Shown: positions 1,993 to 55,085 of the stretch, in pieces
How positions within the stretch are numbered: the first letter of the stretch is position 1
Layout of the letters: each line of letters starts with the position of its first letter
NCBI GenBank assembly: GCA_949152475.1
Contig: OX424556.1
Location: 310,001 to 374,000 of the forward strand
Source: Terebella lapidaria
Taxonomy: Eukaryota; Annelida; Polychaeta; Terebellida; Terebellidae
Direction: 5' to 3'
DNA length: 64,000 nt
Notes under the pieces: model-generated
The model's database searches: none
Told to the model about the DNA's origin: nothing
What the model saw: the letters and a program-made list of their open reading frames with translations, nothing else
Program-made: the position numbers and the translations under genes

Positions 1993-2908
1993 ACTAGACG
2001 TCAAGGCCTAAAGGCCTTGGAGGCATTTCAGGGTGAAGCATGTAAAAAAAACCAAATGCTGACTCAGCAAAAACATGATGAAGCTCCCAATGAGACCTAT
2101 AAAACATTTGTGCAATTACATGTATGTGAACGACAAACTTGTTACCCCTAAGACTATCTGTCTAATGTCTGTTTTGCTCTAGGTCGCACCGTTTCCAAGG
2201 TATCGTTTCCAAGGTATGTTTGTCTAGGGCGATCTTGAGTCCGAAAATAACGTCCGTTTCGCTCTACGACGCACCGTTCCCGAGAGATCGCCGAAAACGA
2301 AAACGACTCGGCGAAAAAATTCAAGGTCAAGGTCAAAGGTCATCCCTAATACCCTTAAGGCATATTTGTCTAGGGCGACGAGTCCGGAAATAACGTCCAT
2401 TTCGCTCTACAACGCACCGTTTCCGAGATATCGACGAAAACGAAAAAATGCCGACTCAGCGAAAAAAATTAAGGTCAAGGTCAAAGGTCATCCCTAATAC
2501 CCTTAAGACATGTTTGTCTAGGCCACGAGTCCAAAAATAACGTCCGTTTCGCTCTACGACGCACCGTTTCCGAGATATCGTCGAAAACGAAAAATGCCGA
2601 CTCAGCGAAAAAATTTAAGGTCAAGGTCAAGGGTCATCCCTAATACCCTTAAAACATGTTTGTCTAAGGCGACGAGTCGGAAATAAAGTCCGTTTCGCTC
2701 TACGACCCACCGTTTCCGAGATATCAACGAGGACGAAAAATGCCGACTCAGCAAAAAAAAATTAAGGTCAAGGTCAAAGGTCATCCATAATACCCCTTAG
2801 ACATGTTTGTCAAGGATGACAAGTCTGAAAACAATGTCCGTTTCGCTCTACGACGCATCGTTTCCGAGATATGCATGAGAGCCTCAAGGATGACTCGGCT
2901 AAAATTAA
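1993..2908 (+). mobile_element. Family B element, 3' truncated
   Basis: Starts ACTAGACGTCAAGGCC with the AAGGCCTAAAGGCCTT palindrome and GGAGGCATTTC. Then come about five ~146-bp units (TCCGTTTCGCTCTACGACGC .. CCGAGATATCGACGAAAACG .. AAGGTCAAGGTCAAAGGTCA). The post-array block begins (GAGATATGCATGAGAGCCTC) but is cut by the family C element at 2909. Confidence 0.85.
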
Positions 2909-3962
2909 AAACATAGGCCCAAGGGACCTTGGGCTTACCGGCTAGCCAATAGGTGATCGGACCGATGGTCTGGTAACTTCAAGGTTACAAGTATATTCAG
3001 CATATATCATTTCATATATGTCAACATTTGATTTCTAAGCTGTAAAGTCGACAATAAGCGAGATAATAGCCATTTTGTGTTTGACCTTGAAAATTAGGTC
3101 AAAGGTCAATTTCAAGATCATCAGAGTATTCGACATATATCATTTCCTATATGTCCGCAATTGATTCCTAAGCTGTAAAGTCGATAATATGGGAGATACT
3201 GGCCATTTTGTGCTTTGACCTTGAAAATAAGGTCAAAGGTCACATTCAAGGTCATGAGAATATTCAGCTTATATCATTTCTTATATGTCCACAATTGATT
3301 CCCAAGCTGAAAAGTGAATAATAAGCGAGATATTAGCGATTTTGTGCTGACCTTGAAAATGTGGTCAAAGGTCAAATTCAAGGTCATCAGAATATTCGGC
3401 ATAAATTATTTCCTATACGGTCACAATAGATTTCTAAGCTGTAAAGTCGATAATAAGCGAGATATTAGCCATTTTGTGCTCTGACCTTGAAAATGAGGTC
3501 AAAGGTCAAATTTAAGGTTATGAGCATACTCAGCATATATCACTTCCTATATGTCCACAATTGATTCCTAAGCTGTAAAGACAATAATAAGCGAGATATT
3601 GGCCATTTTGTGCCCTGACCTTGAAAATGAGGTTAAAGGTCGAATTCAAGGTCACGAGAATATTCAGCATATATCATTTCCTATATGTCCACAATTGATT
3701 CCGAGTCTCTAATCTCAATATTAAGTGAGATATCAAGAACATTGTGGCCCATTATAAAGCATAGGAGAATTTAGCATGGGAAAGTCCTATTTGGGCCCCA
3801 TAAACAATATCAAAATGGCCGCCACACGCAGACCGGCGATTCAAGAGCATTGAAACTTATACACATTACAAAGATGCATGAGGGGAACATTTTGAAACTA
3901 AAATCTCAAAACTGATCTGACAGTTTTTGAGAAAATAATTTTTAAAGTTGAAAACATGCAAT
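2909..3962 (+). mobile_element. Family C element, 3' truncated
   Basis: Starts ACATAGGCCCAAGGGACC..GCTTACCGGCTAGCC, followed by an A-tail-like hairpin (AGGTGATCGGACC / GGTCTGGTAACTT). About six ~134-bp units of the A/C type follow, then the block CATTATAAAGCATAGGAGAA and AAAATGGCCGCCACACGCAG. It has no tail of its own and is cut by the D element at 3963. Confidence 0.8.
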
Positions 3963-4126
3963 CATAGCACCAAGGGTGCTGGAGCTTACCGGCAATCATG
4001 AGAAATGCAGAGTAAAGATTTTCCAAGATATAAATTGCTACACTGATCTTGAACTCTAATTGTCAAAACATGTTCGTAAATGTTGCTGGAAACACATTTT
4101 CTGCATGGATTATAATACGAAATCAA
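3963..4126 (+). mobile_element. Family D 5' segment joined directly to a B element
   Basis: CATAGCACCAAGGGTGCTGG then AGCTTACCGGCAATCATGAG; the 5' hairpin AGCACC-AAG-GGTGCT is clear. About 165 bp match the D copies at 8588 and 57769 and end at ACGAAATCAA, where B begins. Confidence 0.8.
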
Positions 4127-6285
4127 ACTAGACGTCAAGGCCTAAAGGCCTTGGAGGCATTTCAGGGAGAAGCATGAAAAAAACAAAATGCTGACTCAGC
4201 AAAAACATGATGAAGCTCCCAATGAGACCTATAAGACATTTGTGCAATTACATGTATGTGAAGGACAAACTTGATACCCCTAAGACTATCTGTCTAATGT
4301 CTGTTTTCCTCTAGGTCGCACCGTTTCTGAGATATCGATGAAAACGAAAAATGCCGACTCAGCGATAAAATTTAAGGTCAAGGTCAAAGTTCATCCCTAA
4401 TACCCTTAAGACATGTTTGTCTAGAGCGACAAGTCTGAAAATAATGTCCGTTTCGCTCTACGACGCACTGTTTCTGATATATCGACGAACTCGAAAAATG
4501 CCGACTCAGCGAAAAAATTTAAGGTCAAGGTCAAAGGTCATCCCTAATACTCATAAGACATGTTTGTCTAGAGCCACGAGTCCGAAAATAATGTCCGTTT
4601 CGCTCTATGATGCATCGTTTCCGAGATATCGACAAAAGCGAAAAATGCCGACTCAGCGAAAAAAATTAAGGTCAAGGTCAAAGGTCATCCATAATACCCT
4701 TAAGACATGTTTGTCTAGGGCGACGAGTCCGAAAATAATGTCGGTTTCGCTCTAAGATAAACGTTTTCCGAGATATCGACGAAAATGAAAAATGTCCACT
4801 CAGCGAAAAAATTTAAGGTCAAGGTCAAAGGTCATCCCTAATACCCATGAGACATGTTTGTCTAGGGCCATGAGTCCGAAAATAACGTCCGTTTCGCTCT
4901 ATGAAGCATCGTTTCCGAGATATCGACAAAAGCGAAAAATGCCGACTCAGCGAAAAAAATTAAGGTCAAGGTCAACGGTCATCCCTAATACCCTTGAGAC
5001 ATGTTTGTCTAGGGTGACGAGTCCGAAAATAATGTCCGTTTCGCTGTACGATGCACCATTTCCGAGATATCGACCAAAACGAAAAATGCAGACTCAGCAT
5101 AAAATTTAAGGTCAAGGTCAAAGGTCATCCATAATACCCATTAGACATGTTTGTCTATGATGATGAGTCCGAAAATAACGTCCGTTTCGCTCTACGACGC
5201 ACCGTTTCCGGGATATCGACGAGAACGAAAAATGCAGACTCAGCGAAAAAATTTAAGGTCAAGGTCAAAGGTCATCCATAACACCCCTTAGACATGTTTG
5301 TCTAGGATGACAAGTCCGAAAATAACGTCTGTTTCGCTCTTCGACGCACCGTTTCCGAGATATCGACGAAAACGACTCAGCGAAAAAATTTGAGGTCAAG
5401 GTCAAAGGTCATCCATAACACCCCTTAGACATGTTTGTCTAGGGCGTCAAGTTCGATATTAACGTCCGTTTCGCTCTACGACGCACTGTTTCCGAGATAT
5501 CGACGAAAACGAAAAATGCCGACTCAGCGAAAAAATTTAAGGTCAAGGTCAAAGGTCATCCATAACACCCCTCAGACATGTTTGTCTAGGGCGACGAGTC
5601 CGAAAATAAGGTCCGTTTCGCTCTACAATGCACCGTTTCCGAGATATCGACGAAAGCGAAAAATGCCGACACAGCGAAAATAATAAGGTCAAGGTCAAAG
5701 GTCATCCCTAATACCCTTAAGACATGTTTATCTACGGCGATGAGTCCGAAAATAACGTCCGTTTCGCTCTACGATGCAGCGTTTCCGAGATATCGACGAA
5801 AACGAAAAATGCTGACTCAGCAAAATAATTTAAGGTCAAGGTCAAAAGTCATCCATAATATCCCTAAGACATGTTTGTCTAGGATGACGAGTCCGAAATT
5901 AGCGTCCGTTTCGCTCTACGATGCACCGTTTCTGAGATATGCATGAGAGCCTCAAGGATGACTCAGCTAAAATTATTTCGAGCCCTAGATCAAAGGTCGG
6001 ATCGGCCTCAAAATCAATAGGCTTCTTCCCTGGTGATATATGAACCTCCATGCAAAGTTCCACAGTCATTGCCATAATATTTTTTGAGTTATCGTGCGGA
6101 AACCAGAATCAAAACGAACCTCACGGACCCCGGAGCCGGCTCAAAAACAATAGGCTTCTTCTACGCAACATTTCTGACCAGTGGTGAAAATTTGGCGAAG
6201 ATACATCGAGGCAAACTAAAGTTATCGTGCGGAAACCAAAAAGTGAAAGAAAAAACCATAAAGGCATTTCTGCTGAAATGCCTTA
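4127..6285 (+). mobile_element. Complete family B element (~2.16 kb)
   Basis: Both ends are present: ACTAGACGTCAAGGCC at the start, and the hairpin AAGGCATTTCTGCTGAAATG + CCTTAA at the end. It carries about eleven ~146-bp units and a unique 3' block (CAATAGGCTTCTTCCCTGG, then TTATCGTGCGGAAACC). There is no coding capacity beyond fortuitous short frames in the array. It is inserted in family A-like sequence that resumes at 6286. Confidence 0.85.
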
Positions 6286-9895: not shown

Positions 9896-11314
9896 ATTAG
9901 GCCAAGGGCCGAAGATAGGTTACCGGACAATGTTTAATATTTTAGATGTTAGCCAGGTCACTGGTTGAATTCAAGGTCAAGTGAATATTCAGCATATATA
10001 ACATTAAGCATATATCATGTCCACAGTTGACTGCTAAGCTGTAAATTCAATAATCAGCGAGATATTAGCAATTTTGTGCTGTGGCCTTGAAAATGAAGGG
10101 GCAAAGGTCAAATTCAAGGTCATCAAAATATTCAGTGTATATCATCTTCTATATCATGTCCACAATTGATTCCCAAGCCATACAGTCAATAGAGGAGCAA
10201 GATTGTCCTTGGACCTTGAAAATGAGGTCAGAGGTCAAATTCAAGGTCAGAGAATATTCAGCATATATCATTTCCTACATTTAAAATCGATAATAAGTGA
10301 GATATTAGACATTTTGTCCTGTGACCTTGAAAATGAGGTCAAAGGTCAAATTCAAGGTCATGACAATAATCTGCATATGTTCATAACTGATTCCTAAGCT
10401 GTAAAGTCGATAACAAGCGAGATATTAGCCATTTTGTCCTATGACCTTGAAAATGCCGTCAAAGGTCAAAATCAAGGTCATCAGAATATTCAGCATATAT
10501 CATTTCCTATATGTCCACAATTGATTCCTAAGCTGTAGAGTCGATAATAAGTGAGATATTAGCCATTTTGTCCTGTGACCTTGAAAATGAGGTCAAAGGT
10601 CAACTTCAAGGTCATGACAATCATCTGCATATATCATTTCCTATATGTTCATAACTGATTCCTAAGCTGTAAAGTCGATAACAAGCGAGATATTAGCAAT
10701 TTTGTCCTATGACCTTGAAAATGGGGTCAAAGGTCAAATTCAAGGTCATCAGAATATTCAGCATTTATCATTTAATATATGTCCACAATTGATTGTTAAG
10801 CTGTAGAGTCGATAATAAGCGAGATATCAGCTATTTTAAGCTCTGACCTTGAATTGAGGTCAGAGGTCAAATTCAAGGTCACGAGGATATTCAGCATATA
10901 TCATTTCCTATATGTCCACAATTGATTCCTAGTCTCTAATCTCAATATTAAGTGAGATATTAGGCATAATGTGTCCCATTATAAAGCATAGGAGAATTTA
11001 ACATGGGAAAGTCCCATCTGGGCCGAGTTTGGGCCAAAATGGCCCACTTCGAGCGATTCAAGCGCAACGAAATTTATAGACATCATAGGGGTACATATGA
11101 GGAGTGTTATGTATCAAAAAGAAAAAAAGTTACTGAACAGATTTTGAGAAAATGGCCACCAAAGTCCAAAATCAGGCATTTTTCGTCGAAAACGGCCGCC
11201 ATTTTGAAAAAAAAGCGAAAATCAAAAAACTAAAAAATACCTCCTTCCTGAATTATTTTTAAGTATTTTTGTGCAAAATTTCAGAAGAATTCGCCCGTAA
11301 ACAAAAAAGATAAA
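9896..11314 (+). mobile_element. Family A element without its tail
   Basis: 5' end ATTAGGCCAAGGGCCGAAG + AGGTTACCGGACA. About seven ~134-bp units follow, then the block GTGTCCCATTATAAAGCATA and the 3' region with GCCGCCATTTTG. It stops at AAAAAAGATAAA, exactly where a GAC-rich tail should begin, because the next A element starts there. A 76-codon basic frame lies at 11003-11233. Confidence 0.85.
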
Positions 11315-13153
11315 ATTAGCCCAAGGGCTAAGACAGGTTACCGGACAAAATATGTTTTATATTCCTGTGACCTTGAAAATGAGATCAAAGGTCAAATTCA
11401 AGGTCATCAGAATATTAGGCTTTCATCATTTCCTATATGTCCACAACTGATTCCTAAGCTGTAAAGTCGATAATAAGTGAGACTTTAGCCATTTTGTGTT
11501 CTTGACCATGAAAATGAGGTCAGAGGTCAAATTCAAAGTCACGAGAATATTCAGCATATATCATTTCCTACATATCCACAAGTGATCCCTAAGCTGTAAA
11601 ATTGATAACAAGTGATATATTACCCATTTTGTCCTGTGAAATTGAAAAAGAGGTCAAAGATCAAATTCAAGGTCATGACAATAATCTGCATATATCATTT
11701 CCTATATGTTAACAATTGATTCCTAAGCTGTAAAGTCGATAACAAGCGAGATACTAGCTATTTTGCCATGTGACCTTGAAAATGAGGTCAAAGGTCAAAT
11801 TCAAGGTCATCAGAATATTCGGTTGATATCATTTCCTATATGTCCACAATTGATTCCTAAGCTGTAAAGTAGATAATAAGCGAGATATTAGCCATTTTGT
11901 CTTTTGACCTTGAAAATGAGGTCAAAGGTCAAATTCAAGGTCATCAGAATATTCGGTTGATATCATTTCCTATATGTCCATAATTGATTCCTAAGCTGTA
12001 AAGCCAGAAACAAGCGAGATATTAGCCATATTGTCCTTTGACCTTGAAAATGAGGTCAAAGGTCAAATTCAAAGTCATCAGAATATTCGGTTGATATCAT
12101 TCCCTATATGTCCACAATTGATTCCTAAGCTGTAAAGTCGATAATAAGCGAGATATTAGCCATTTTGTTCTCGGACCTTGAAACAAAGGTCAGAGGTCAA
12201 ATTCTCAGTCACAAGAATATTCAGCATATATCATTTCCTACATGTCCACAAATGATCCCTAAGCTGTAAAATCGATAATAAGTGAGATATTAGCCATTTT
12301 GTCCTGTGACCTTGAAAATGAGGTCAAAGGTCAAATTCAAGGTCATGACAATAATCTGCATATATCAATTCCTATATGTTGTTAATTGATTCCTAAGCTG
12401 TAAAGTCGATAAGAAGCGAAATATTAGCCATTTTGCCGTGTGACCTTGAAATGAGGTCAAAGGTCAAATTCAAGGTCATCAGAATATTCGGCTGATATCA
12501 TTTCCTATATGTCCACAATTGATTCCTGAGCTGTAAAGTCGATAATAAGCGAGATATTAGCCATTTTGTTCTCTGACCTTGAAACTGAGGTCACAGGTCA
12601 AATTCAAGGTCACGAGAATATTCAGCATATATCATTTCCTATATGTCCACAATTGATTCCTAGTCTCTAATCGCAATATTAAGTGAGATATCAGGCTTAT
12701 TGTGTCCCATTATAAAGCATAGGAGAATTTAACATGAGAAAGTCCCATTTGGGCCGAATTTGGGCCCAAAATGGCCCACTTCGAGCGATTCAAGGGCAAC
12801 GAAATTTATACATGTCACAGGGGTACATATGGGGAGTGTTGTGCATCAATAAGAAAAAAAGTTACTGAACAGATTTTGAGAAAACAACCGTCAAAGTCCA
12901 AAATTGGCCATTTTTCGACGAAAACGGCCGCCATTTTGAAAAAAATGCAGAAATCAGAAAACTAAAAAAAACCTTTCCTGGAAATATTTTTAGGTATTTT
13001 TGTGCAAAATTTCAGAAAGATCGGACCATATACTTTAAAGATAAAAATGTGAACGGACGGACGACGGACGGACGGACGGACGGACGGACGACGGACGACG
13101 GACGCAACGCCATGCCAATAGGTTATCGGACTATAGGTCCGGTAACCTAAAAA
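11315..13153 (+). mobile_element. Complete family A element (~1.84 kb)
   Basis: 5' end ATTAGCCCAAGGGCTAAGAC + AGGTTACCGGACA; about ten ~134-bp units; the conserved 3' region with a related basic frame at 12771-12965; a (GGAC)n tract; hairpin ending CCTAAAAA at 13153. Confidence 0.87.
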
Positions 13154-13434
13154 TGTGGACGACGACGACGACGGACGACGACGGACGACGGACGACAGAC
13201 GACGGACGCAACGCCATGCCAATAGGTTATCGGACCATAGGTCCGGTAACCTAAAAAACGTTTTTAGATATTGGCCTAAGGTATGTTCTGACAAATTTAT
13301 GGGGATATTCATCATGCCAAAAAAAAGTTACAGATCCGGACGGACGCCGGACAACGGACAACAGATGACAGACGACGGACGGAGGACGGACGAAAAACCC
13401 CGATTTTCGTCCCAAAGGGCCGGTAAACTAAAAA
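13154..13434 (+). mobile_element. Two extra stacked 3' termini
   Basis: A second A tail (GACGACGG tract, hairpin, CCTAAAAAA) ends at 13258. A more diverged tail (GACGGACGAAAAACCCCG .. GGGCCGGTAAACTAAAAA) ends at 13434. Neither has its own 5' end. Confidence 0.78.
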
Positions 13435-30375: not shown

Positions 30376-31928
30376 ATTAGCCCAAAGGCTAAGATAGGTT
30401 ACCGGACAATTTTGGTTTGGCCATGGCAGCATTGGCCGGTAACAGACTTTGAGATTTACCAATCAAGGTTTGCAGTGTAAACATATGACCTTGGGATTTA
30501 CCAATCAAGGTCATCCGTATGAACTTCGATGTTACCATTACATGTATGTGTGCGGCATTTGATATTCTATATTTTGGGTGGAATCGTTTAGGCCGCTCAG
30601 GTCAATTTACACATTCCAAGTCAGACATTTGGCACTCAAGGTCATCTGACGTCAAGTTCAAGGTCATCATTAGTTGTGCCATATATGTCTTCCTATATGT
30701 TCATAATGCAAACATGAGCTCTATCTGCAAGCATTTCATCTACAGAGGCAAATCTGGGCATTTTTTGACCCCAAAATGGCTGTTTTGACCTTTCAAGGTC
30801 ATCGAAGGTCAAATTCAAGGTCACCACACAAGTCGCAATATATGACTTCCCATTTGAAAGTGCCAATTTCTAAGCTCTATCTTCAAGTGTTCTATGAGTA
30901 CAGTCCAGGCAGCTCCCATTAAGGAGGAAAAAAGTGATGAAAATATCTCGTCCAAAATTTTTTTCAAACGGTGAAAATTTTTTTTTGCCTAGAAATGGCC
31001 CAAAATGGACAGTAATGCGATTTGGGGCGAAAAATTTTTTTTTCGCCGACTCGTCAAAAATTCAAAATGGCTACCACACTGAGATCGGCGATTCAAGGGC
31101 AACAAAACTTATACACGTCACAGAGGTATATAAGAGGAGTCTTCTTAAGCAAAAATCTCAAAACTGATCAGAGAGTTTTTGAGAAAATACAGACCAGGTG
31201 CAAATTTGAGCGTTTTTCGACCCAAAAATGGCTGTTTTGACCTTTCAAGGTCATCCAAGGTCAAATTCAAGGTCACCACACAAGTCGCCATATATGACTT
31301 CCCATTTGAAAGTGCCAATTTCTAAGCTCTATCTTCAAGCGTTCTATGAGTACAGTCCGGACAGCTCCCATTATGAAGGAAAAAAGTGCTGAAAATTTTC
31401 CAAGTCCAAAATTTTTTTCAAAGGGTGAAAATTTTTTTTTGCCCTAGAAATGGCCCAAAATGGATAGTAATGCGATTTGGGGCGAAAAAATTTTTTTTCG
31501 CCGACCCGCCAAAAATTCAAAATGGCCGCCACACGGAAACCGGCGAATTTAGGGCAACCAAACTTATACATATCACAGAGGTATATGAGGGGAATCTTTT
31601 GAAACCAAAAACTCAAAACTGATCAGACAGTTTTTGAGAAAATGGCCGTCAAAGTCCAAAACTGAGCGTTTTTCGACAAAAACGGCCGCCATTTTGAAAA
31701 AAATGCGAAAATCAAAAAACAAAAAAATACCTCCTTCTCAAAATATTTTTAGGCATTTTTGTGCAAAATTTCAGAAAGATTCGATAATTAACTTTAAAGA
31801 TAAAAATGTTAACGCCGGACGGACGGACGGACGGACGGACGGACGGACGGCTAGACGGACGGACGGACGGACGACGGACGCAACGCCATGCCAATAGGTT
31901 ATCGGACCAAAGGTCCGGTAACCTAAAA
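30376..31928 (+). mobile_element. Complete family A2 element (~1.55 kb)
   Basis: Same 5' layout as the element at 27892. Two TTTCAAGGTCATC modules, A/T runs flanking TAGAAATGGCCCAAAATGG, GCCGCCATTTTG, a long (GGAC)n tract and hairpin AGGTTATCGGACC AAA GGTCCGGTAACCT at 31896-31924. Confidence 0.87.
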
Positions 31929-32390
31929 TGTTAACGCCGGATGGACGGACGGACGGACGGACGGACGGACGACGGACGCAACGCCATGCCAATAGGTTAT
32001 CGGACCAAAGGTCCGGTAACCTAAAAAGATAAAAATGTGAACGACGCCAACGACGGACAACGGACGCAACGCCACGGCAATAGGTTATCGGACCAAAGGT
32101 CCAGTAACCTAAAAACTAAAAAATACCTCCCTCTCGAAAAATTTTTAGGCATTTTTGTGCAAAATTTAAGAAAAAACGATTGTAAACTTTAAAGATAAAA
32201 TTGTTGACGGACGGACGCAACGCCATGGCAATAGGTTATCGGACCATAGGTCCGGTAACCTAAAAATGTTATTTGCTGACGAACGGACAGACAGACGACG
32301 GACGAAAAACCATGACAGTAGCTTATCGGCCCATATGGGCCGTAAGCTAAAAACCAGACAAAACCATAAGGGAGGCAAATGCCCTAATTA
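31929..32390 (+). mobile_element. Five extra consecutive 3' termini (A, A, A, D, B)
   Basis: A tails end at about 32027, 32115 and 32266. A D-type tail (GACGAAAAACCATGACAGTA, GCTTATCGGCCCATATGGGC) ends at 32353. A B-type tail (ACAAAACCATAAGGGAGGCA + AATGCCCTAA) ends at 32390. None has its own 5' end. With the tail at 31896 there are six ends in under 500 bp. Confidence 0.85.
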
Positions 32391-43100: not shown

Positions 43101-46100
43101 CAAAGAATTCTGACAAAACCATTTTGGGACATTTCTGCCGAAATGCCTTGATCATAGCAATGTATCATTTAAATATCATCATTTGCCCCACATTAGTCCT
43201 AAAACGATCGAAGGAATAGGATATTACCTCGTCAATTCCTTCCTCCTCGTGAAAAGATCGTGACAGAAACACGCACGTCATCGTCTGTCCCTTCTTTGTG
43301 AACAAAATGAAATCATTCCCGATTCGCATTGAGCCTCTGAAAAAAAATTAGCCCAAGGGCTAAGAAAGGTTACCGGACAAAAAATATTATAGTATTTTGT
43401 CCCGTGACCTTGAAAATAAGGTCATTGGTAAATTCAAGGACACGATAATATTCGGTATATGTCATTTCTAGTATGTCCACAATTGATTCCTAAGCTGTAA
43501 AGTCGATAATAAGGGAGATATTAGTGATTATGTCCTGTGACCTTGAAAAAGAAATCAAAGGTTGAATTCAAGGTCATAGCAATATTCAGCATATATCATT
43601 TCCTATATGTTCATAATTGATTCCTAAGCTGTAAAGTCGATAATAAGTGAGATATTAGCCATTTTGTCCTGTGACCTTGAAAATGAGGTCAAAGGTAAGT
43701 TCAAGGTCATGACAATGTTCAGAATATATCATTTTCTATATGTTCACAATTGATTGCTAAGCTGTAAAGTCGATAAAAAGCGGGATATTAGCCATTTCGT
43801 TCTCTGACCTTGAAAATGAGGTCAAAAGTCAAATTCAAGGTCACCAGAATTTTCAACATATATAATTTCGTATATGTTCACTATGAATGCCTAAGTTGTA
43901 AAGTTGATAATAAGCGAGATATTGGCCATATTGTTCTCTGACCTTGGAAATGAGGTCAGGGTCAAATTCAAGGTCACCAGAATATTCAACATATATCATT
44001 TCCTATATGTTCACTGTGGATTCCTAAGCTGTAAAGTCGATAATAAGCGAGATATTAGCCATTTCGTGCTCCGACCTTGAAAATAAGGTCAAAGGTCAAA
44101 TTCAAGGTCATGAGAATATTCATTTTCAGTGTGTCCACAATTGATCCCTAGGCTGTAATGTTAGCAATTTTGTGCTCTGTCCTTGAAAATGAGGTCAGAG
44201 GTCAACCCAGGTCACGAGATTATTCAGCATATATCATTTCCCATAAGTTCACTATGGATTCCTAAGCTATAAGGTCAAAAGTCAAATTCAAGATCATGAA
44301 AATATTCATCATATATCATTTCCTATATGACCACAATTCATACCCAAGGTGTAAAGTCGACAATAAGTGAGGTATTAGTGATTTTATGTTCTGACCTTGA
44401 AAATGAGGTCAAAGGTCAAATTCAAGGTCACAAGAATATTCAACAAATATCATTTTCTATTATCCATAATTTATTCCTAATCTCTAATCTCAATATTAAG
44501 TGAGATATTAAGAATGATGTGTCCCATTATAAAGCATAGGAGAATTTAACATGGGAAAGTCCCTTTTGGGGCCAAGTTTGGGCCAAAATGGCCCACTTCG
44601 AGCAAGGGCAACGAAACAAATACACATTACAGGGGTACACACAAGGAGTGTTATGCATCAAAAAGAAAAAAAAGTTACTAAACAGTTCTTGCTGAAAACA
44701 GCCGCCATTTTGAAAAAATTAGCCCAAGAGCTAAGATAGGTTACCGGACAATATATATTATTATAATATCTTTTATATATAATAGCTATTTTATATTGTG
44801 GCCTTGAAAATAAGGTCAAGGTCAAATTTAAAGTCATGAGAGTATTCAGCATATTTGATTTCTTATACGTTCACAATTGCTTACTAAGCTGTAAATTCAG
44901 TACTAAAAGAGATATGAGTCATTATGTCCTGTGACATTGAAAATGATATCAAAAGTCAAATTAAATGTCATCAGAATATTTGGCATATATCATTTGCTGT
45001 ATGTCCACAATTGAATCCTACAAATTCTTTACTAGTTGTAAAGTTGATAATAAACAAAGTATTAGCCATTTTATCCTGTGATACCTTGAATATGAGGTCA
45101 AAGGTCAAATTCAAGGTCGTGACAATATTCAGCATATATCATTTCCTATATTTCCACAATTGATTCCTAATCTGTAAAGTTGATAATGAGCGAGATATTA
45201 GCCATTCTGTACTCTGACCTTGAAAATGAGGTCAAACTTCAACTTCAAGGTCATGATAATACTCACCATATATTATTTTCTATTTGTCCACAATTGACTC
45301 TCAAGTTGTAAAGTTGATAATAAGCGAGATTTTAGCCATTTTGTTCTTTGACCTTGAAAATGAGGTCAAAGGTCAAATTCAGGGTCATCAAAATATTCGG
45401 CATATGTCATTTCCTATATGTCCACAATTGATTCCTAAGTTGTAAAGTCAATTATAAGCGAGATATTAGCCATTTTGTGCCTGACCTTGAAAATCAGGTC
45501 AAAGGTCAAATTCAAGGTCATCAAAATATTCGGCATACATCATTTCCTATACATCCACAATTTAGTCCCAAGCTGTAAAGTGGATAATAAGCCAGATATT
45601 AGCCGTTTTGTTCTTTGACCTTGAAAATGAGGTCAAAGATCAAATCAAGATCATCAAAATATTCGGCATATGTCATTTCCTATATGTCCACAATTGATTC
45701 CTTAGCTGTAAAGTCAATAACAAGCGAGATATTAGCCATTTTGTGCCTGACCTTGAAAATTAGGTCACAGGTCATATTCAAGGTCATGACAATAATCAGC
45801 ATATATCATTTCCTATGTGTCCATAATTGATTCCTAGTCTCTAATCTCAATAATAAGTGAGATATTAGGCATAATGTGTCCCATTATAAAAATTAGGCCA
45901 AGGGCCAAAGATAGGTTACCGGACAATGTTTAATATTTTACATGTTAGCCAGGTCACTGGTTAAATTCAAGGTCAAGAGAATATTCAGCATATATAATAT
46001 TAAGCATATATCATGTCCACAGTTGATTGCTAACCTGTAAATTCAATAATCCAAGAGATATTAGCAATTTTATGCTCTGGCCTTGAGAATGATGGCAAAG

Positions 46101-49100
46101 GTCAAATTCAAAGTCCTCAAAATATTCAGTGTATATCATTTCCTATATGTCCACAATTGATTCCCAAGCCATACAGTTAATTTAGGAGCAAGATATGAGC
46201 CAGTTTGTCCTTGGACCTTGAATATTAGGTCAGAGGTCAAATTCAAGGTCATGAGAATATTCAGCATATATCATTTCCTATATGTCCACAATTGATTCCT
46301 AAGCTGTAAAATCGATAATAAGTGAGATATTAACTATTTTGTCCTGTGACATTGAAAATGAGATCAAAGGTGAAATTCAAGGTCATAACAATAATTTGCA
46401 TATATCATTTCCTATATGTTCATAACTGATTCCTAAGCTGTAAAGTCGATAACAAGCGAGATATTAGCCATTTTGTCCTATGACCTTGAAAATAAGGTCA
46501 AAGGTCAAATTTAAGGTCATCAGAATATTCAGCATATATCATTTCCTATATGTCCACAATTGATTCCTAAGCTGTAGAGTCCATTATAAGCGAGATATAA
46601 GCCATTTTGTCCTGTGACCTTGAAAATGGGGTCAAGGTCAAATTCAAGGTCATCAGTATATTCAGCATATATCATTTCCTATATGTCCACAATTGATTCC
46701 TAAGCTGTAGAGTCGATAATAAGCGAGATATAAGCCATTTTGTCCTGTGACCTTGAAAATGGGGTCAAAGGTCAAATTCAAGGTCATCAGTATATTCAGC
46801 ATATATCATTTCCTATATGTCCACAATTGATTCCTAAGCTGTAGAGTCGATAATAAGCGAGATATAAGCCATTTTGTGCTCTGACCTTGAAACCGAGGTC
46901 AGAGGTCAAATTCAAGGTCACGAGAACATTCAGCATATATCATTTCCTATATGTCCACAATTGATCCCTAGTCTCTAATCTCAATATTAAGTGAGATATT
47001 AGGCATAATGTGTCCCATTATAAAGCATAGGAGAATTTAACATGGGAAAGTCCCATTTGGGCCGAGTTTGGGCCAAAATGGTCCACTTCGAGCAATTCAA
47101 GTGCAACGAAATTTATGGACATCATAGGAGTACATATGAGGAGTGTTATGTATCAAAAAGAAAAATTAGGCCAAGGGCCAAAGATAGGTTACCGGACAAT
47201 GTTTAATATTTTAGGTGTTAGCCAGGTCCCTGGTTGAATTCAAGGTCAAGAGAATATTCAGCATATATAACATTAAGCATATATCATGTCCACAGTTGAT
47301 TGCTAAGCTGTAAGTTCAATAATCAGAGAGATATTAGCAATTTTATGCTGTAGCCTTGAAAATGAAAGGGCAAAGGTCAAATTCAAGGTCATCAAAATAT
47401 TCAGTGTATGTCATTTTCTATATCATGTATATCATGTCCACAATTGATTCCCAAGCCATACAGTCAATAGAGGAGCAAGATATGAGCCAGTTTGTCCTTG
47501 GACCAAGGAAATGAGGTCAGAGGTCAAATTCAAGGTCACGAGAATATTCAGCATATATCATTTCCTATATGTCCACAATTGATTCCTAAGCTGTAAAATC
47601 GATAATAAGTGAGATATTAGCCATTTTGTCCTGTGACCTTGAAAATGAGGTCAAAGGTCAAATTCAAGGTCATGACAATAATCTGCATATATCATTTCCT
47701 ATATGTTCATAATTGATTGCTAAGCTGTAAAGTCGATAACAAGCGAGATATTAGCCATTTTGTCCTGTGACCTTGAAAATGAGGTCGAAGGTCAAATTCA
47801 AGGTCATCAGAATATTCAGCATATATCATTTCCTATATGTCCACAATTGATTCCTAAGCTGTAGAGTCGATAATAAGCGAGATATAAGCCATTTTGTGCT
47901 CTGACCTTGAAACTGAGGTCAGAGGTCAAATTCAAGGTCATGAGAATATTCAGAATATATCATTTCCTATATGTCCACAATTGATTCCTAAGCTGTAGAG
48001 TCGATAATAAGCGAGATATAAGCCATTTTGTGCTCTGACCTTGAAACTGAGGGCAGAGGTCAAATTCAAGGTCACGAGAATATTCAGCATATATCATTTC
48101 CTATAGGTCCACAATTGATTCTTAGTCTCTAATCTCAATATCAAGTGAGATATTAGGCATAATGTGTCCCATTATAAAGCGTAGGAGAATTTAACATGGA
48201 AAAGTCCCATTTGAGCCGAGTTTGGGCCAAAATGGCCCACTTCGAGCGATTCAAGCGCAACGAAATTTATAGACATCATAGGAGTACATATGAGGAGTGT
48301 TATTTATCAAAAAGAAAAAAAGTTACTGAACAGATTTTGAGAAAATGGCCGCCAAAGTCCAAAATCAGGCATTTTTCGTCTAAAACGGCCGCCATTTTGA
48401 AAAAAATGCGAAAATCAAAAAACTAAAAAATACCTCCTTCTTGAATTATTTTTGAGTATTTTTGTGCAAAATTTCAGAAAAATTCGCCTGTAAACAAAAA
48501 AGATAAAAATGTGGACGACGACGACGGACGACGGACGCAACGCCATGCCAATAGGTTATCGGACCATTGGTCCGGTAACCTAAAAAAGTTACTGAACAGA
48601 TTTTGAGAAAATGGCCGCCAAAGAAAAAAGTGCGAAAATCAAAAAACTAAAAAATACCTCGTTCTTGAATTATTTTTTAGTATTTTTGTGCAAAATTTCA
48701 GGAAAATTCGCCCGTAAACAAAAAAGATAAAAATGTGGACGACGACGGACGACGACGACGGACGCAACGCCATGCCAATAGGTTATCGGACCATAGGTCC
48801 AGTAACCTAAAAAGCATATGAGAATTTAACATGGGAAAGTCCTATTTGGGACCCTTCGAGAACATGAAAATGGCCGCCACACGCAGACCGGCGATTCAGG
48901 GGCAACAAAACTTATACACATCACAGAGGTATGTGAGAGCAATCTTTGGAAATGAAAATGAAAATCTCAAAACTGTCTGAACAGTTTTTGAGAATATATC
49001 GCAAAAAGCTAGTTTGCAGACTAAATTCTACGAATTCACCGGGAACCAAAATCCAAAGCTGCCAAGCAAAAATGGCGGTGGACAGAAAAGTGAAGCTTCT

Positions 49101-52100: not shown

Positions 52101-55085
52101 TCCGGTAACCTAAAAATTAGCCCAATGGGCTAGAAAGGTTACCGGAGAAATATACAGAGTTAAGCCGAGAAAGTTGAAGGTCAAATTCAAGGTGACCACT
52201 GAAATCGCCATATCTCTAACCTTGAAAATGGGATCAAAGGTTAAATTCTAGATCACCAAACTATTCAGCATACATCATTTCCTATATGTTCACTATGGAC
52301 CCCTAAGCTGTAAATTTGATAATAAGCGAGATATAAGCCATTTTGTAATCTGACTTTGAAAATAAAATGACTGACCTTGAAATTTAGGTCAAAGGTCAAA
52401 TTCAATATCATTAAAATATTCAGAATATATCATTTCCTATATGTTCACAATTGATTCCTAAGCTGTAAAGTCGATAATAAGCGAGATATTAGCCATTTTG
52501 TCCTGTTGACCTTGAAAATGAGGTCAAAAGTCAAAATCAAGGTCACTAGAATATTCAGCATATATCATTTCCTATATGTTCACAATTGATTTCTAAGCTG
52601 TAAAGGCGCTAATAAGCAAGATATTGGCCATTTTGTCCTGTGACCTTGAAAATGAGGTCAAAGGTCAAATTCAAGGTCATGAGAATATTCAGCATATATC
52701 ATTTCCTATATGTTCACAATTGATTCCTAAGCTGCAAAGTCGATAATAAGCGAGATATTAGCAATTTTGTTCTGTGACCTTGGAAATGAGGTCAAAGGTC
52801 AAATTCAAGGTCATGAGAACATTCAGCATATATCATTTCCTATATGTTCACAATTGATTCCTAGTCTCTAATCTCAATATTAAGTGAGATATTAGGCTTT
52901 AATGTGTCCCATTATAAAGCATAGGAGAATTTAACATGGGAAAGTCCCATTTGGGCCGAGTTTGGGCCAAAATGGCCCACTTCGAGCGATTCAAGTGCAA
53001 CGAAATTTATAGACATCATAGAAGTACATATGAGGAGTCTTATGTATCAAAGAGAAAAAAAGTTACTAAACAGATTTTGAGAAAATGGCCGCCAAAGTCC
53101 AAAATCAGGCCTTTTTCGTCGAAAACGGCCGCCATTTTGAAGAAAATGCGAAAATCAAAAAACTAAAAAATACCTCCTTCTTGAATTATTTTTAAGTATT
53201 TTTCTGCAAAATTTCAGAAAAATTCGCCCGTAAACAAAAAAGATAAAAATGTGGACGACGACGACGACGACGACGGACGACGACGGACGCAACGCCATGC
53301 CAATAGGTTATCGGACCATAGGTCCGGTAACCTAAAATTGTGCTAAAACCATAAATGCAGAAATGCCTTAATAATGCCAAGTACAAAGACACATCAATGT
53401 ACAGAAACATGCTCAAGATTTCTGTACAGATGTTGTACTCACGATTTCAGGCCATTGCCATACATGCCAATCATCTGAGAGTCTTGTGTTTTCTTGTTGG
53501 ACCGGCCAAATGTGATAATATCTGCTGCCTCACCTTGCAGAGAGAACAAAAGCAAATCTTGAGACAAAACTTGCAACTTGCAAACTGGCAACTAATTAAC
53601 TTACTCTATTCCAAAATGTACACTCAACTTTCGCCAATCCATACTATAGTGAATGACTTATGTACATGTGTATAATGAACACAAATAACATAACCTGACC
53701 CATAGTGTTTGCCCTGATCCATCAGTGAACCATGAACACACATAACTTACCGTGATCCATAGTGAACCATGAACACACATAACTTACCTTGATCCATAGT
53801 GAACCATGAACACACATAACTTACCTTGATCCATAGTGAACCATGAACACACATAACTAACCTTGATCCATAGAGAACCATGAACACACATAACTAACCT
53901 TGATCCATAGTGAACCATGAACACACATAGCTTACCTTGATCCATAGTGAACCATGAACACACATAACTTACCTGGATCCATAGTGAACCATGAACACAC
54001 ATAACATACCTTGATCCATAGTGAACCATGAAAACACATAACTTACCCTGATCCATAGTGAACCATGAACACACATAACTTACCCTGATCCATAGTGAAC
54101 CATGAACACACATAACTTACCTTGATCCATAGTGAACCATGAACACACATAACTTACCTTGATCCATAGTGAACCATGAACACACATAACTTACCTTGAT
54201 CCATCAGTGAACCATGAACACACATAACTTACCCTGATCCATAGTGAACCATGAACACACATAACTTACCTTGATCCATAGTGAACCATGAACACACATA
54301 ACTAACCTTGATCCATAGTGAACCATGAACACACATAACTTACCTTGATCCATAGTGAACCATGAACACACATAACTTACCCTGATCCATAGTGAACCAT
54401 GAACACACATAACTAACCTTGATCCATAGTGAGCCATGAACACACATAACTAACCTTGATCCATAGTGAACCATGAACACACATAACTTACCTTGATCCA
54501 TAGTGAACCATGAACACACATAACTTAGCCTGATCCATAGTGAACCATGAACACACATAACTTACCTTGATCCATAGCGAACCATGAACACACATAACTT
54601 AGCCTGATCCATAGTGAACCATGAACACACATAACTTACCCTGATCCATGCCTTCTCCATCGTCAAGAAAACACAGCAGATATCCACCACGGAAGTTCTT
54701 GTCGGGTACTGCATTAAAAACATCATTACACCACAACGCAATACACCTGAGGAACATTTGACTGCATATATATGAAGTACAGTGTCTACCCTATTCCTGT
54801 CTTGTTTGATTCTAATGTGACTGACCGGTGTATATGTTGATCTTAGTTGCTGAAGCATCGCGAGCATTGTCCAGCAACTCAGCCAAACCTCCAAACAAGA
54901 ACTCATGAGTCGTTCTGCAATGTTACATCACTCGCAAGTTTTTCCAGCTAAATACAGCCCTACAGTGGTGAAAATTCATTATGTGCAAAGTGTATGGTGT
55001 TGTACAAGCAGGATACTCACGAGTTTGTATGGAGATAGTCGTAGCTCAGCTGAGCACGACTCAAGACCTTGTATTGTGACATCAT
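33969..55085 (-). CDS. MORC2: MORC2-like gene, N-terminal GHKL ATPase part, seven coding exons, 3' end outside the window
   Basis: Seven minus-strand exons splice in frame (GT-AG at every junction) into about 239 residues that follow vertebrate MORC2 from its N terminus. Seen: N-box ELLDNARDA (about residues 34-42, with the presumed Mg-binding Asn at 38), G1 motif DDGEGM (67-72), FGRS (83-86, aligning with the human S87 region as I remember it), glycine-rich [14 protein letters not shown] (98-110), then the start of the transducer-like domain with [16 protein letters not shown]2 is known as a nuclear ATPase that dimerises on ATP binding and works with HUSH in silencing transposons and other loci; that role here is inferred by homology. 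MORC3/4 are less likely because the [11 protein letters not shown] block is MORC2-type. The coiled coil, CW zinc finger and C-terminal domains are not in the window. Introns 4 and 6 are about 10 and 8.5 kb and are filled with repeats. Confidence 0.9.
34190..35332. other. MORC2 intron 6 sequence, no gene seen
   Basis: 34305-34400 (ACCACGAAAAAAGCGTTCC, CCATTATGAGTGCCATACTG) resembles 36300-36390 in the opposite orientation. The rest has no repeat partner in the window. The plus-strand frame at 34277-34660 shows no recognisable motif. Confidence 0.5.
35333..36158 (-). mobile_element. Old family B element in reverse orientation
   Basis: Read on the minus strand it holds about three diverged ~146-bp units (TCCGTTTCACTCTACGACGC), the block CAATAGGGTTCATC, TTATCATCCGGAAACC and a T-rich end matching B's A-rich 3' region, with a decayed hairpin at about 35331-35350. 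It is the clearest reverse-oriented A-D family element in the window apart from the flipped A tail at 1068-1196. Confidence 0.75.
36159..36449. other. Dispersed sequence related to 34.3 kb
   Basis: On the minus strand, GACTACCATGAAAAACGTG and CCATTATGAGTGCCATACTG match 34350-34400 on the plus strand at roughly 80% over about 70 bp. No protein assigned. Confidence 0.4.
36450..36600 (-). repeat. Repeat E, partial copy
   Basis: The minus strand reads GCGCGGCGGTTTTTTGCGGC, GAGTCATGCAGGCAGACGAT, CAGAACGATCCAAAGGATCG, shared with the plus-strand copies at 42271 and 48992. The 5' half of the repeat is missing. Confidence 0.75.
36701..37294. mobile_element. MITE, 594 bp, perfect 25-bp TIRs, TA target duplication
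   Basis: Left end CCGTATTTATTCAATTAGTT + CGAAC; the right end is its exact inverse. Flanked by TA at 36699-36700 and 37295-37296. TA duplication points to a Tc1/mariner-type transposase as the source. No coding capacity. The split relative at 903-1606 shows the family is dispersed. Confidence 0.93.
37295..37439. other. Spacer between the MITE and the DIRS-like element
   Basis: Probably includes one end of the DIRS-like element, but I could not define the terminal repeat. No gene seen. Confidence 0.4.
37440..41990 (-). mobile_element. DIRS-type tyrosine-recombinase retroelement, broken fossil
   Basis: Parts are in the order expected for DIRS-like elements on the minus strand. A gag-like region (about 41978-40320) has a Cys/His-rich start ([20 protein letters not shown]). 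Reverse transcriptase (about 39830-39240) shows [20 protein letters not shown]. RNase H (about 38940-38350) shows [18 protein letters not shown] and DALSRP. A tyrosine recombinase (about 38320-37490) shows [17 protein letters not shown]. It lies in MORC2 intron 6, same strand as the gene. It is clearly broken (several interruptions) but long stretches still read well, so it looks of intermediate age. Ends and inverted terminal repeats were not resolved. DIRS1/PAT versus Ngaro type is undecided. Confidence 0.85.
40155..40330. mobile_element. AT-rich insert inside the DIRS-like element
   Basis: An abrupt change from GC-rich element sequence to AT-rich DNA and back. It contains the palindromic TGCGTAATTACGCA. 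It looks like a small secondary insertion, but its ends are not defined. Confidence 0.45.
41991..42270. other. DIRS-like flank / possible terminal region
   Basis: AT-rich, no gene. It may contain the 5' terminal repeat of the DIRS-like element, but no matching sequence was found at the other end. Confidence 0.35.
42271..42550 (+). repeat. Repeat E, full-length copy
   Basis: AATATATCGCAAAT.. through TGATGTATAAAATAAAC. Shares GCAGACTAAATT, GAATTCACCGGGA, GCGGTGGACAGAAAAGTGAA, ATATGCGCGGCGGTTTT and GTCATGCAGGCAGACGATC with 48992-49283. Family unknown. Confidence 0.82.
42551..42714. other. Start of MORC2 intron 6, nothing recognised
   Basis: Intron sequence between the exon 6 donor and repeat E. 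No features seen. Confidence 0.5.
42715..42789 (-). CDS. MORC2: MORC2 coding exon 6
   Basis: The 75-bp exon (25 codons, phase 0 to 0) reads [20 protein letters not shown] then KEKEK. It corresponds to the VIVPLPTWNARTREPVT block of human MORC2. Acceptor is GAACACAG|ATT, donor GAAAAG|GTAAAG. It is the least conserved of the exons, but phase, order and the IVVP start support it. Confidence 0.82.
42852..43151 (+). mobile_element. Old family B solo copy without array, in MORC2 intron 5
   Basis: AAGAAGTCAAGGCG.. ..CCTTGGAAGCATTTCGGTGT at the left; CTGACAAAACCATTTTGGGA and CATTTCTGCCGAAATGCCTT at the right. Both B ends are recognisable but diverged, and the minisatellite is absent. Confidence 0.72.
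43228..43336 (-). CDS. MORC2: MORC2 coding exon 5
   Basis: The 109-bp exon encodes [20 protein letters not shown], then [16 protein letters not shown], very close to human MORC2 [20 protein letters not shown]. It starts by completing the Ser codon of exon 4 and ends in phase 0 (GACGAG|GTAATA). The acceptor is a run of T then CAG, and ten bases beyond it the intron is already the 5' end of a family A element. Confidence 0.92.
43347..44717 (+). mobile_element. Family A element abutting the MORC2 exon 5 acceptor
   Basis: ATTAGCCCAAGGGCTAAG + AGGTTACCGGACA begins ten bases from the exon 5 edge. About seven units, the CATTATAAAGCATAGGAGAA block, a short 3' region; no tail; cut by the next A. Confidence 0.85.
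44718..45891 (+). mobile_element. Family A element, 3' truncated
   Basis: 5' hairpin variant AGCCCAAGAGCT, AGGTTACCGGACA, TATATATTATTATAATATC, about eight units. Stops after GTCCCATTATAAAA at the next A start. Confidence 0.83.
45892..47164 (+). mobile_element. Family A element, 3' truncated
   Basis: ATTAGGCCAAGGGCCAAAG + AGGTTACCGGACA. About eight units, with a local near-exact duplication of one unit at about 46590-46860. The 3' region ends after TGTTATGTATCAAAAAGAAA where the next A begins. Confidence 0.84.
47165..48587 (+). mobile_element. Complete family A element (~1.42 kb), near-twin of 61179-62596
   Basis: ATTAGGCCAAGGGCCAAAG + AGGTTACCGGACA; about seven units; basic 76-codon frame at 48196-48426; GACGACGACGG tract; hairpin and CCTAAAAAA at 48587. 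The same order and nearly the same bases recur at 61179-62596. Confidence 0.88.
48588..48813 (+). mobile_element. Second, longer 3' terminus stacked on the A element
   Basis: Repeats the last ~220 bp of family A (GTTACTGAACAGATTTTGAG, ATACCTCGTTCTTGAATTAT, GAC tract, hairpin, CCTAAAAA) directly behind the first end. Confidence 0.85.
48814..48991 (+). mobile_element. Family A internal fragment
   Basis: GAGAATTTAACATGGGAAAG, AAAATGGCCGCCACACGCAG and AACTGTCTGAACAGTTTTTG, as in the element at 24881. Cut by repeat E. Confidence 0.7.
48992..49283 (+). repeat. Repeat E, full-length copy
   Basis: Same as 42271-42550 with an extra GGAGCAAAA triplication. The plus-strand reading [20 protein letters not shown] is open here but shifted in the other copy, so coding is unproven. 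Confidence 0.82.
49284..50001 (+). mobile_element. Family B 3' fragment
   Basis: The last array unit, two post-array blocks (TCAACAGGGTTCTTCCCTGG, TTATCGTCCGGAAACC) and a CAAAAA run leading into the next A. No B start and no terminal hairpin. Confidence 0.8.
50002..52115 (+). mobile_element. Complete family A element carrying a foreign segment (~2.1 kb)
   Basis: ATTAGCCCAAGGGCTAAGAA + AGGTTACCGGACA. A non-repeat segment sits at 50297-50815, then about seven ~134-bp units, the 3' region with a basic frame at 51698-52015, a GGAC tract, hairpin and CCTAAAAA at 52115. Twin of 58956-61178. Confidence 0.87.
50297..50815 (+). other. Captured non-repeat segment inside family A (possible gene fragment)
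   Basis: AATGTAAGTATCAATCTATT .. CAGATTTTGATGATGCCAAT .. GACACACTGGCGTCTTCAGG. Its first ~120 bp recur partly at 50669-50815, so it holds a partial internal duplication. One frame reads [20 protein letters not shown]; further on another frame reads [17 protein letters not shown]. These look protein-like but I do not recognise the protein. Also present at 59254-59765. Confidence 0.6.
52116..53336 (+). mobile_element. Complete family A element (~1.22 kb)
   Basis: ATTAGCCCAATGGGCTAG + AGGTTACCGGAGA, about five units, 76-codon basic frame at 52936-53166, GACGACGACG tract, hairpin ending CCTAAAA. Joined head-to-tail to the A element before it. Confidence 0.87.
53337..53371 (+). mobile_element. 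Decayed B 3' end behind the A tail
   Basis: TGCTAAAACCATAAATGCAG + AAATGCCTTAA is the B terminus with part of the hairpin lost. It lies only ~70 bp from the exon 4 donor of MORC2. Confidence 0.65.
53443..53533 (-). CDS. MORC2: MORC2 coding exon 4 (glycine-rich ATP lid)
   Basis: The 91-bp exon encodes [20 protein letters not shown] then IGMYGNGLK, with split codons at both ends. Acceptor is CTGCAAG|GT, donor [20 protein letters not shown] across the exon 4/5 junction is the GxxGxG ATP-lid motif of GHKL ATPases. Confidence 0.9.
53534..53664. other. MORC2 intron 3, part next to exon 4
   Basis: Acceptor-side intron sequence before the 37-bp array; no element recognised. Confidence 0.5.
53665..54640 (-). 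repeat. 37-bp minisatellite derived from the MORC2 exon 3 splice donor
   Basis: About 25 head-to-tail copies of a 37-bp unit. One unit on the minus strand is ATGGATCAAG|GTAAGTTATG plus GTGTTCATGGTTCACT. The unit reproduces the end of exon 3 and its 5' splice site. By eye about 16 copies keep GTAAGT, five have GTTAGT, one has GTATGT, and a few have lost the GT. One or two copies are 39 bp. The array fills nearly all of intron 3. Confidence 0.92.
54640..54708 (-). CDS. MORC2: MORC2 coding exon 3 (DxGxG motif), its donor seeds a minisatellite
   Basis: The 69-bp exon encodes [20 protein letters not shown] then DQ, with split codons on both sides. Acceptor is TTAATGCAG|TA, donor ATCAGG|GTAAGT. 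DDGEGM is the GHKL G1 motif. The last ten exon bases and the donor are the first unit of the 37-bp tandem array that fills most of the intron. Confidence 0.9.
54826..54914 (-). CDS. MORC2: MORC2 coding exon 2 (ATPase N-box)
   Basis: The 89-bp exon reads [20 protein letters not shown], then SATKINIYT. It completes the Ser codon split with exon 1 and ends one base into the next codon. Acceptor is ATTGCAG|A, donor CACCG|GTCAGT. The N-box Glu/Asn that bind Mg-ATP in GHKL ATPases are present. MORC2 is the best match. Confidence 0.92.
55021..55085 (-). CDS. MORC2: MORC2 coding exon 1 (start codon)
   Basis: Encodes [20 protein letters not shown] followed by N and a split Ser codon, matching the MORC2 start (ALSAAQLTFEYLHTNS in human as I recall it). 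Donor is AACTC|GTGAGT. The tandem ATGATG at 55085-55080 directly follows a pyrimidine-rich ..TTGTCACAG, which looks like a splice acceptor. The 5' UTR may therefore lie in an upstream exon not located here. Either ATG could be used. Confidence 0.85.

Follow-up and report, generated by a model that had tools for sequence, protein, structure and literature searches.

The window, a stretch of 64,000 nt in whose positions all coordinates below are given, carries the first four coding exons of a MORC2 gene, and the third intron of that gene opens with a minisatellite; gene and array are both read on the minus strand. According to the gene model and its protein match, coding exon 1 (55021..55082) runs from its ATG to the donor CTC|GTGAGT, exon 2 (54826..54914) leads into the donor CCG|GTCAGT, the 69-nt exon 3 (54640..54708) ends ...DDGEGMDQ-G, and exon 4 (53443..53533) follows the acceptor CTCTGCAAG|GTGAGG. 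Once spliced, the translated frame aligns with solved MORC2 structures at query residues 3-105 (6.6e-39; the query carried an additional residue where exons 1 and 2 join), and its GHKL ATPase N-terminus is nearer to MORC2 than to MORC3/4 (7.8e-11, 2.2e-08). The structure match bears out both the MORC2 identity and the exon 3 assignment of the original prediction.

Intron 3 (53534..54639) is 1106 nt long, of which 927 nt are array, and it begins with the true 5' splice site of exon 3, AGG|GTAAGT, read directly from the sequence at 54634..54639. Combining Tandem Repeats Finder (TRF) output with a reading of the individual units places the array at 53713..54649, with 26 units of the form ATGGATCARG|GTAAGT...; TRF itself reports a 37-bp repeat at 53715-54649, with 25.2 copies, 95% matches and a score of 1698. 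The 26 units starting ATGGATC run from 54649 down to 53722 on the minus strand, spaced 37 nt apart save for two spacings of 38, and one degenerate partial copy can be seen by eye past the last of them. To each unit exon 3 contributes 10 nt and intron 3 the other 27 nt, and unit 1 straddles the exon 3/intron 3 boundary, comprising the exon's end and the true donor, with its exonic 10 nt repeated identically in the next copy. Thus the predicted amplification of a splice donor, about 25-fold, stands. The exon end then proposed, ...CAAG, requires correction: the last ten bases of exon 3, which form the exonic part of the first unit, are ATGGATCAGG, and ATGGATCAAG is the commonest form among the copies and not the exon's own. 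Scattered substitutions and two 1-nt insertions distinguish the copies from one another. When a 31-nt stretch of the unit was searched against the 762-Mb genome with up to 3 mismatches, all 23 matches fell inside the MORC2 array, and the same stretch searched backward as a control gave none, which excludes a chance origin of the array. The locus is present as a single copy in the assembly. Many unrelated tandem satellites, with units of about 134 and 146 bp, also occur in the window.

Downstream of the true donor, GT is kept in 22 of the 25 copies and the full GTAAGT in 15; GT is lost in three copies, and these include the first and the third. Both of the latter read CTAAGT in the unit reading (54597..54602 and 54523-54528) and lie near exon 3, at +37 and +111. 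The G|GT junction is kept in 23 of 26 units, the true one included. Scored with metazoan donor frequencies, 11 of the 25 downstream copies lie above the true donor, 5 equal it, 6 are weaker and 3 are dead; competition among donors, as in the proposed ladder of 5' splice sites, is therefore physically plausible, but the extended products would all be truncated. Frame was expected to be kept whenever the copy number used was a multiple of three. On translation, all 25 extended forms of exon 3, multiples of three included, stop at codon 87: any extension of at least 74 nt meets the in-frame TAA at 54599..54601, which ends 24 of the 25 forms (54601-54599 in reading order), and the remaining form, that of the dead donor at +37, acquires a TGA at its junction with exon 4. 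Decoy use can therefore only truncate MORC2.

Variation among the copies is concentrated in the decoy donors. In a post hoc comparison of 25 copies, the true donor copy included, 6 of 9 donor columns are variable as against 3 of 28 others (p=0.0023, an optimistic value given that the copies share ancestry), and the mismatch rate per column per copy is 0.080 in the donor and 0.006 in the rest. No such excess was seen in six other arrays (p 0.19 to 1), which were chosen for intact donors, a choice that lowers their donor variation. Judged from the sequence, the donor-centred pattern hints at selection against decoys in the MORC2 array; it is not predicted by a wholly passive array, and suggests that decoys matter somewhat in this gene.

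The original prediction held such a structure to be unusual for a host gene, a view that does not hold within this genome. When array edges were read, 25 of the 28 donor-bearing arrays traced, MORC2 included, were found to start at a plausible coding-exon donor, as against none of five control arrays found with backward patterns, at either edge; the 25 cases were found by searching for donor-side arrays, with patterns that selected for strong donor copies. Protein support is clear for 10 of the 25 exons, and family support is absent for 13, of which 12 gave no usable match on scanning and one (L082) lay outside the scan. By a simple back-match, the length of exon end repeated in the next copy ranges from 2 to 65 nt in the 21 arrays measured. 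Family or structure matches identify PheRS alpha, ceramide glucosyltransferase, ALDH, SEC14-like, dipeptidase, 4-HPP dioxygenase and laminin N genes among the array-bearing genes, and the genes so matched are expected to be needed by the organism. In some arrays a single exon is followed by donors that are almost the same as one another and number 20 to 50 or more. In MORC2, PheRS alpha and an FA58C-like gene the true donor is weaker than decoys (again on metazoan donor frequencies), and tolerance of these arrays would therefore imply that position beats strength, with the proviso that the search patterns favoured strong copies. The MORC2 array is not unique in kind within this genome.

These observations are probably best explained by a mirage-type minisatellite that arose by local duplication of an exon/intron boundary and is tolerated, mostly passively, with the first donor in use. 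A 37-bp segment, reaching from 10 nt before the end of exon 3 to 27 nt into intron 3, would have been tandemly duplicated and would then have grown in place, and events of the same type have taken place at other exon ends of the genome. All copies after unit 1 are intronic, leaving the coding sequence intact provided that the spliceosome chooses the first donor; use of that donor is the proposed reason for the array's being tolerated. That choice, despite several decoys closer to consensus, would come about by matching the acceptor of intron 2 with whichever donor lies closest on the far side of the 69-nt exon. Occasional decoy use would lengthen exon 3 by at least 74 nt and bring in the codon-87 stop inside the ATPase domain, and such mRNAs would be expected to undergo nonsense-mediated decay and not to make a new protein.

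An alternative is that the ladder sets MORC2 dose, some transcripts using decoys, stopping at codon 87 and being destroyed, such that the level of MORC2 depends on how long the array is and how many strong decoys it contains. The copies that outscore the true donor on metazoan donor frequencies, the truncation of every decoy product, the two GT losses close to the exon (+37 and +111) and the far more variable donor columns, as expected if decoys are costly, all fit this account, as does the use of minisatellite donors in human IFI6 described in excerpts of PMC4526556. Against it, passages of PMC3087553 and PMC3902484 describe splicing in the mirage genes of amphioxus as seemingly normal, and equal or stronger decoys persist in other genes here and so may be harmless. 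Regulation of MORC2 by such a ladder is possible but, in our view, unlikely.

Each of the remaining explanations is more improbable still. That duplicated AG|GT sites feed intron gain or recursive splicing within the array, a donor joined to any later AAG restoring the junction, agrees with the retention of G|GT in 23 of 26 units, true one included, and with intron gain via tandem duplication as outlined in part of PMC4974935 and the model in part of PMC3087553, but the unit shows by eye (unscored) no clear pyrimidine tract before its AAG, and this route is very doubtful. An inflated or collapsed copy number is equally doubtful: tandem arrays are hard to assemble, but these copies carry scattered substitutions and two 1-nt insertions, comparable arrays occur elsewhere in the assembly, at other genes, and the existence of the structure is independent of copy count. 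Least credible of all is an unrelated intronic satellite abutting exon 3 by accident; the abundance of unrelated arrays in the window would favour it, but it is refuted by register, since unit 1 is the exon end, the phase is exactly 37 nt and the exonic 10 nt are identical in the next copy, and the 31-nt stretch has no match elsewhere in the genome.

Boundary duplication of the kind favoured here makes the MORC2 array a further case of a known but rarely described type of repeat. As far as the accessible text of PMC3087553 and PMC3902484 extends, amphioxus "mirages" occur in Adh3, the globins BflGb6/BflGb9 and troponin C, with similar repeats in PGBD5; their units measure 10-72 bp (Adh3) or 150-160 bp (globins), and splicing of the genes seems normal. 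Copy number varies and length instability is reported (PMC3087553, same proviso); the mirage type is characterised in part by length differences between alleles and by somatic instability. Like the mirages so described, the MORC2 unit spans an exon/intron boundary, is minisatellite-like (37 bp x 26) and keeps its splice signal in many, not all, copies (22 of 25 downstream keep GT); unlike them, it seems to lie in a protostome and not a cephalochordate. Tandem copies with AG|GT likewise feature in the route to new introns through duplicated AGGT-containing segments, set out in part of PMC4974935, but in MORC2 the duplication enlarges an intron and does not visibly make one. Any downstream copy in MORC2 would give the codon-87 stop, which separates it from human IFI6 (6-16), where a minisatellite with multiple splice donor sites was reportedly described by Turri et al. 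in 1995. According to excerpts of PMC4526556, splicing of IFI6 employs two downstream repeat units and three mRNA species result. The two minisatellites are alike in offering several splice donors.

More tentatively, donor-side mirages may be a standing genome-wide feature of the host's protostome lineage, with at least about 25 genes affected and arrays in which the near-consensus donors behind one true, sometimes weaker, donor can number 50 or more; the first donor would win by position and not strength, and residual leakage would select against decoys in genes that are sensitive to dose, MORC2 among them. Work on how one 5' splice site is picked when several are good has usually relied on constructs with a few sites. 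This genome offers many natural donor ladders, in which one long-read cDNA set could weigh position against strength, and if the genome-wide reading is true the arrays are natural experiments on that question. Boundary minisatellites known from amphioxus would also be shown to originate in animals only remotely related to it, and exon ends of array-bearing genes may be placed wrongly by annotation pipelines. As to the host itself, a search for GFP-family sequences found no match, which argues weakly against a cephalochordate, and mir-71 and five mir-2-like sequences lie within about 1.1 kb, which suggests a protostome.

Coding exons 1-4 of MORC2 lie on the minus strand of the window, and the conceptual protein that they encode matches MORC2 among solved structures at 6.6e-39, as against 7.8e-11 for MORC3 and 2.2e-08 for MORC4. 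These exons are present in a single copy in the assembly, and two Morc6_S5-domain pieces found ~85-90 kb downstream, on the same contig and strand, are compatible with the remainder of the gene. Two more Morc6_S5 loci, MORC paralogues at C4:30273905-30274759 and C4:30371296-30372020 elsewhere in the genome, are separated by ~100 kb and oppositely oriented, and at either locus one piece carries two in-frame TGA codons.

Exon 3 of MORC2 (54708-54640, minus strand) is 69 nt long and terminates in ATGGATCAGG, immediately followed by GTAAGT. At this exon end begins a 37-bp unit present in 25.2 copies at 95% (TRF), or 26 units when counted individually, the first of which consists of the exon end and the true donor. 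Unit spacing is 37 nt apart from two instances of 38 nt, and the array makes up most of the 1106-nt intron 3. The exon end itself is CAGG, and the CAAG end given in the original prediction is instead the commonest form among the copies. It had also been proposed that most near-copies retain GTAAGT, which holds for 15 of the 25 downstream copies, with GT kept in 22, but fails for the first and third, which read CTAAGT.

Extension of exon 3 to these downstream copies, or decoys, has a uniform outcome. The reading frame was expected to be kept at every third copy; this is wrong, and all 25 possible extensions end at codon 87. Of these, 24 run into a TAA at 54601-54599 that is in frame; the +37 extension, whose donor is dead, ends at a TGA created at the exon 4 junction. 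Because the codon-87 stop is common to every extension, the ladder can yield only normal MORC2 or truncated messages, and the latter are probably degraded.

Two measures of donor strength were applied to the true site and the decoys. When scored with donor frequencies from the literature, the true MORC2 donor reaches 10.35; of the 25 downstream copies 11 exceed this score, 5 match it and 6 fall below it, the other 3 being dead. By pairing energy with the U1 end, the true site stands at -10.0, AAG|GTAAGT copies at -10.6 and the single CAG|GTAAGT copy at -12.4. The two measures concur for most copies, the exceptions being AAG|GTAAGC (-9.5) and ACG|GTAAGT (-9.3), which pair slightly more weakly than the true site. 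Therefore, by frequency score and U1 energy, the top decoys equal or exceed the true donor.

Variation in the array (53715-54649), taken over the true copy and the others that could be aligned (25 in all), is concentrated in the donor: 6 of 9 columns of the donor 9-mer are variable versus 3 of 28 others (p=0.0023), and mismatch per column per copy is 0.080 versus 0.006. A possible cause of this pattern is that decoys are selected against in MORC2, but because the copies are of common ancestry and the test was made post hoc, it amounts to a hint. Donor-concentrated variation is absent from six other arrays, picked for their intact donors (p 0.19 to 1).

What is seen in MORC2 is a boundary segment copied in tandem from the exon end, with every copy after the first lying in the intron. 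Such copies would have arisen by local duplication followed by expansion, the first donor would be chosen as the one nearest to the exon's acceptor, any leakage to decoys would produce truncated messages, and the array would be mostly neutral. Taken together, we regard this account as probable. It has a parallel in amphioxus, where tandem repeats across exon/intron boundaries were named mirages and where the globin paper describes them as length-variable and somatically unstable at Adh3, with splicing seemingly undisturbed (PMC3087553). The PGBD5 paper likewise reports no aberrant mRNAs from the Adh and troponin C mirages (PMC3902484), and the MORC2 array has the structural features of the amphioxus examples.

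That the array is instead a real dose-setting ladder, in which decoys would govern how much MORC2 is made, is unlikely. Such a ladder would draw on the strength of the top decoys, with an output confined to normal or truncated messages, and donors in such repeats are reported to be used in human IFI6 (PMC4526556). The amphioxus repeats, by contrast, leave splicing apparently intact. Passive tolerance of the array, with the first donor used, remains the preferred reading.

Donor arrays are present at many exons of this genome. A search of the 762-Mb genome for near-consensus donors in threes, spaced by 19-49 nt, together with a variant of that pattern and a spacing of 50-80 nt, gave at least 23 distinct arrays, MORC2 included, among the matches listed for the three patterns. 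The 5' edge was read in all 23, and in 21 the first unit consists of an exon end, reached by an open frame, and its donor, both of which are repeated in the copies. With this prediction fixed beforehand, a GTATGT consensus was then searched, and 4 of the 5 arrays traced among the matches listed begin at an exon donor, giving a pooled figure of 25 of 28 with MORC2 included. Three loci were not counted as mirages: L033, whose array is antisense to its gene, L077, which has no exon, and L104, where a coding exon was not seen.

As a control, a donor pattern was read in reverse, and none of the 5 arrays among the matches listed has an exon donor at either edge, as judged by eye. The difference between 25/28 and 0/5 has a one-sided p of 2.4e-4, an enrichment that is partly built in because the search patterns require a donor consensus; when the count is limited to the 10 arrays whose family match is clear, the difference from 0/5 falls short of significance (~0.14 by hand calculation, as C(23,5)/C(33,5)). 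Raw matches for pattern and backward control show no clear excess at 19-49 nt (202/148) or with the variant (118/133), and a clear excess at 50-80 nt (621/188) and with GTATGT (521/203). What the comparison establishes is the existence of this class of array; preferential amplification at donors is not claimed.

Evidence for the 25 exons is a clear family or structure match in 10 (MORC2, PheRS alpha, ceramide glucosyltransferase, laminin N, ALDH, SEC14-like, dipeptidase, EGF, WD40 and 4-HPP dioxygenase), a weak match under the Pfam cut-off in 2 (a carrier and an FA58C domain), and in 13 an open frame read by eye up to the donor as sole basis (L035, L051, L062, L069, L070, L073, L076, L078, L079, L080, L082, L100 and L101). 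Some exons carry putative names such as ACOX or TPR; the ACOX-like exon is without a match in PDB, and the TPR-like exon without one in Pfam.

In 20 of the 25 arrays, MORC2 again included, a stop lies no more than 69 nt past the exon. The frame stays open for 480 nt at L035 (C2:26.91 Mb, 30-bp unit), throughout the 393 nt read at L100 (C1:1.14 Mb, 33-bp unit), for 600 nt in the 4-HPP dioxygenase array (L105/L103, C2:1.02 Mb, ~21-bp unit) and for 171 nt at L076, and L078 is without a stop across the 106 nt read. The units of L035, L100 and the dioxygenase array are multiples of three, and use of their decoys could lengthen the protein and produce a ladder of lengths, which is conceivable there but not in MORC2.

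A 35-bp donor unit occurs at three sites 10-12 kb apart (C3:25670912, 25681353 and 25693579), as if a mirage-bearing gene or exon had been duplicated, and the latter two sites were excluded from the array count. At C3:1739616-1742494 a 31-bp unit forms an array of ~2.9 kb, with GT in 50 of 51 copies of one aligned stretch; longer spans are found at C3:37.84 Mb (5.4 kb) and C1:99.94 Mb (4.3 kb).

Among the open-licence papers listed, we found no reports of such repeats beyond amphioxus and IFI6. The available portions of papers on fish myostatin, a C. elegans intronic minisatellite and abalone TSSK1 hold no amplified donor like that of MORC2, nor does that of a paper on human segmental-duplication repeats, which does describe exon-intron boundary repeats that may create new introns.

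If the source is a protostome, mirages occur well outside the cephalochordates. At C11:12.85 Mb (L086-L088), mir-71 is followed by five mir-2-like sequences within ~1.1 kb. A mir-2 family search gave 3 matches at this one place, 2 above cut-off, and one sub-cut-off match in 14 control genomes; mir-71 and two further mir-2 sequences there were identified by string match. The mir-2 family is not known outside protostomes, and the cluster would mark a protostome, which speaks against amphioxus as the source. The GFP family had no match in the genome, a weak result that does not imply absence.

Elsewhere in the window, GGAC/GAC-rich simple repeats at 13042-13257, 31839-32115 and 53254-53340 run into a common stretch that holds an imperfect palindrome, GGTTATCGGACC..GGTCCGGTAACC, and together these probably represent an interspersed element. 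Satellite-like arrays of ~134 and 146 bp occupy 2216-5940, 10375-12662 and 43394-48160, and occur elsewhere as well.
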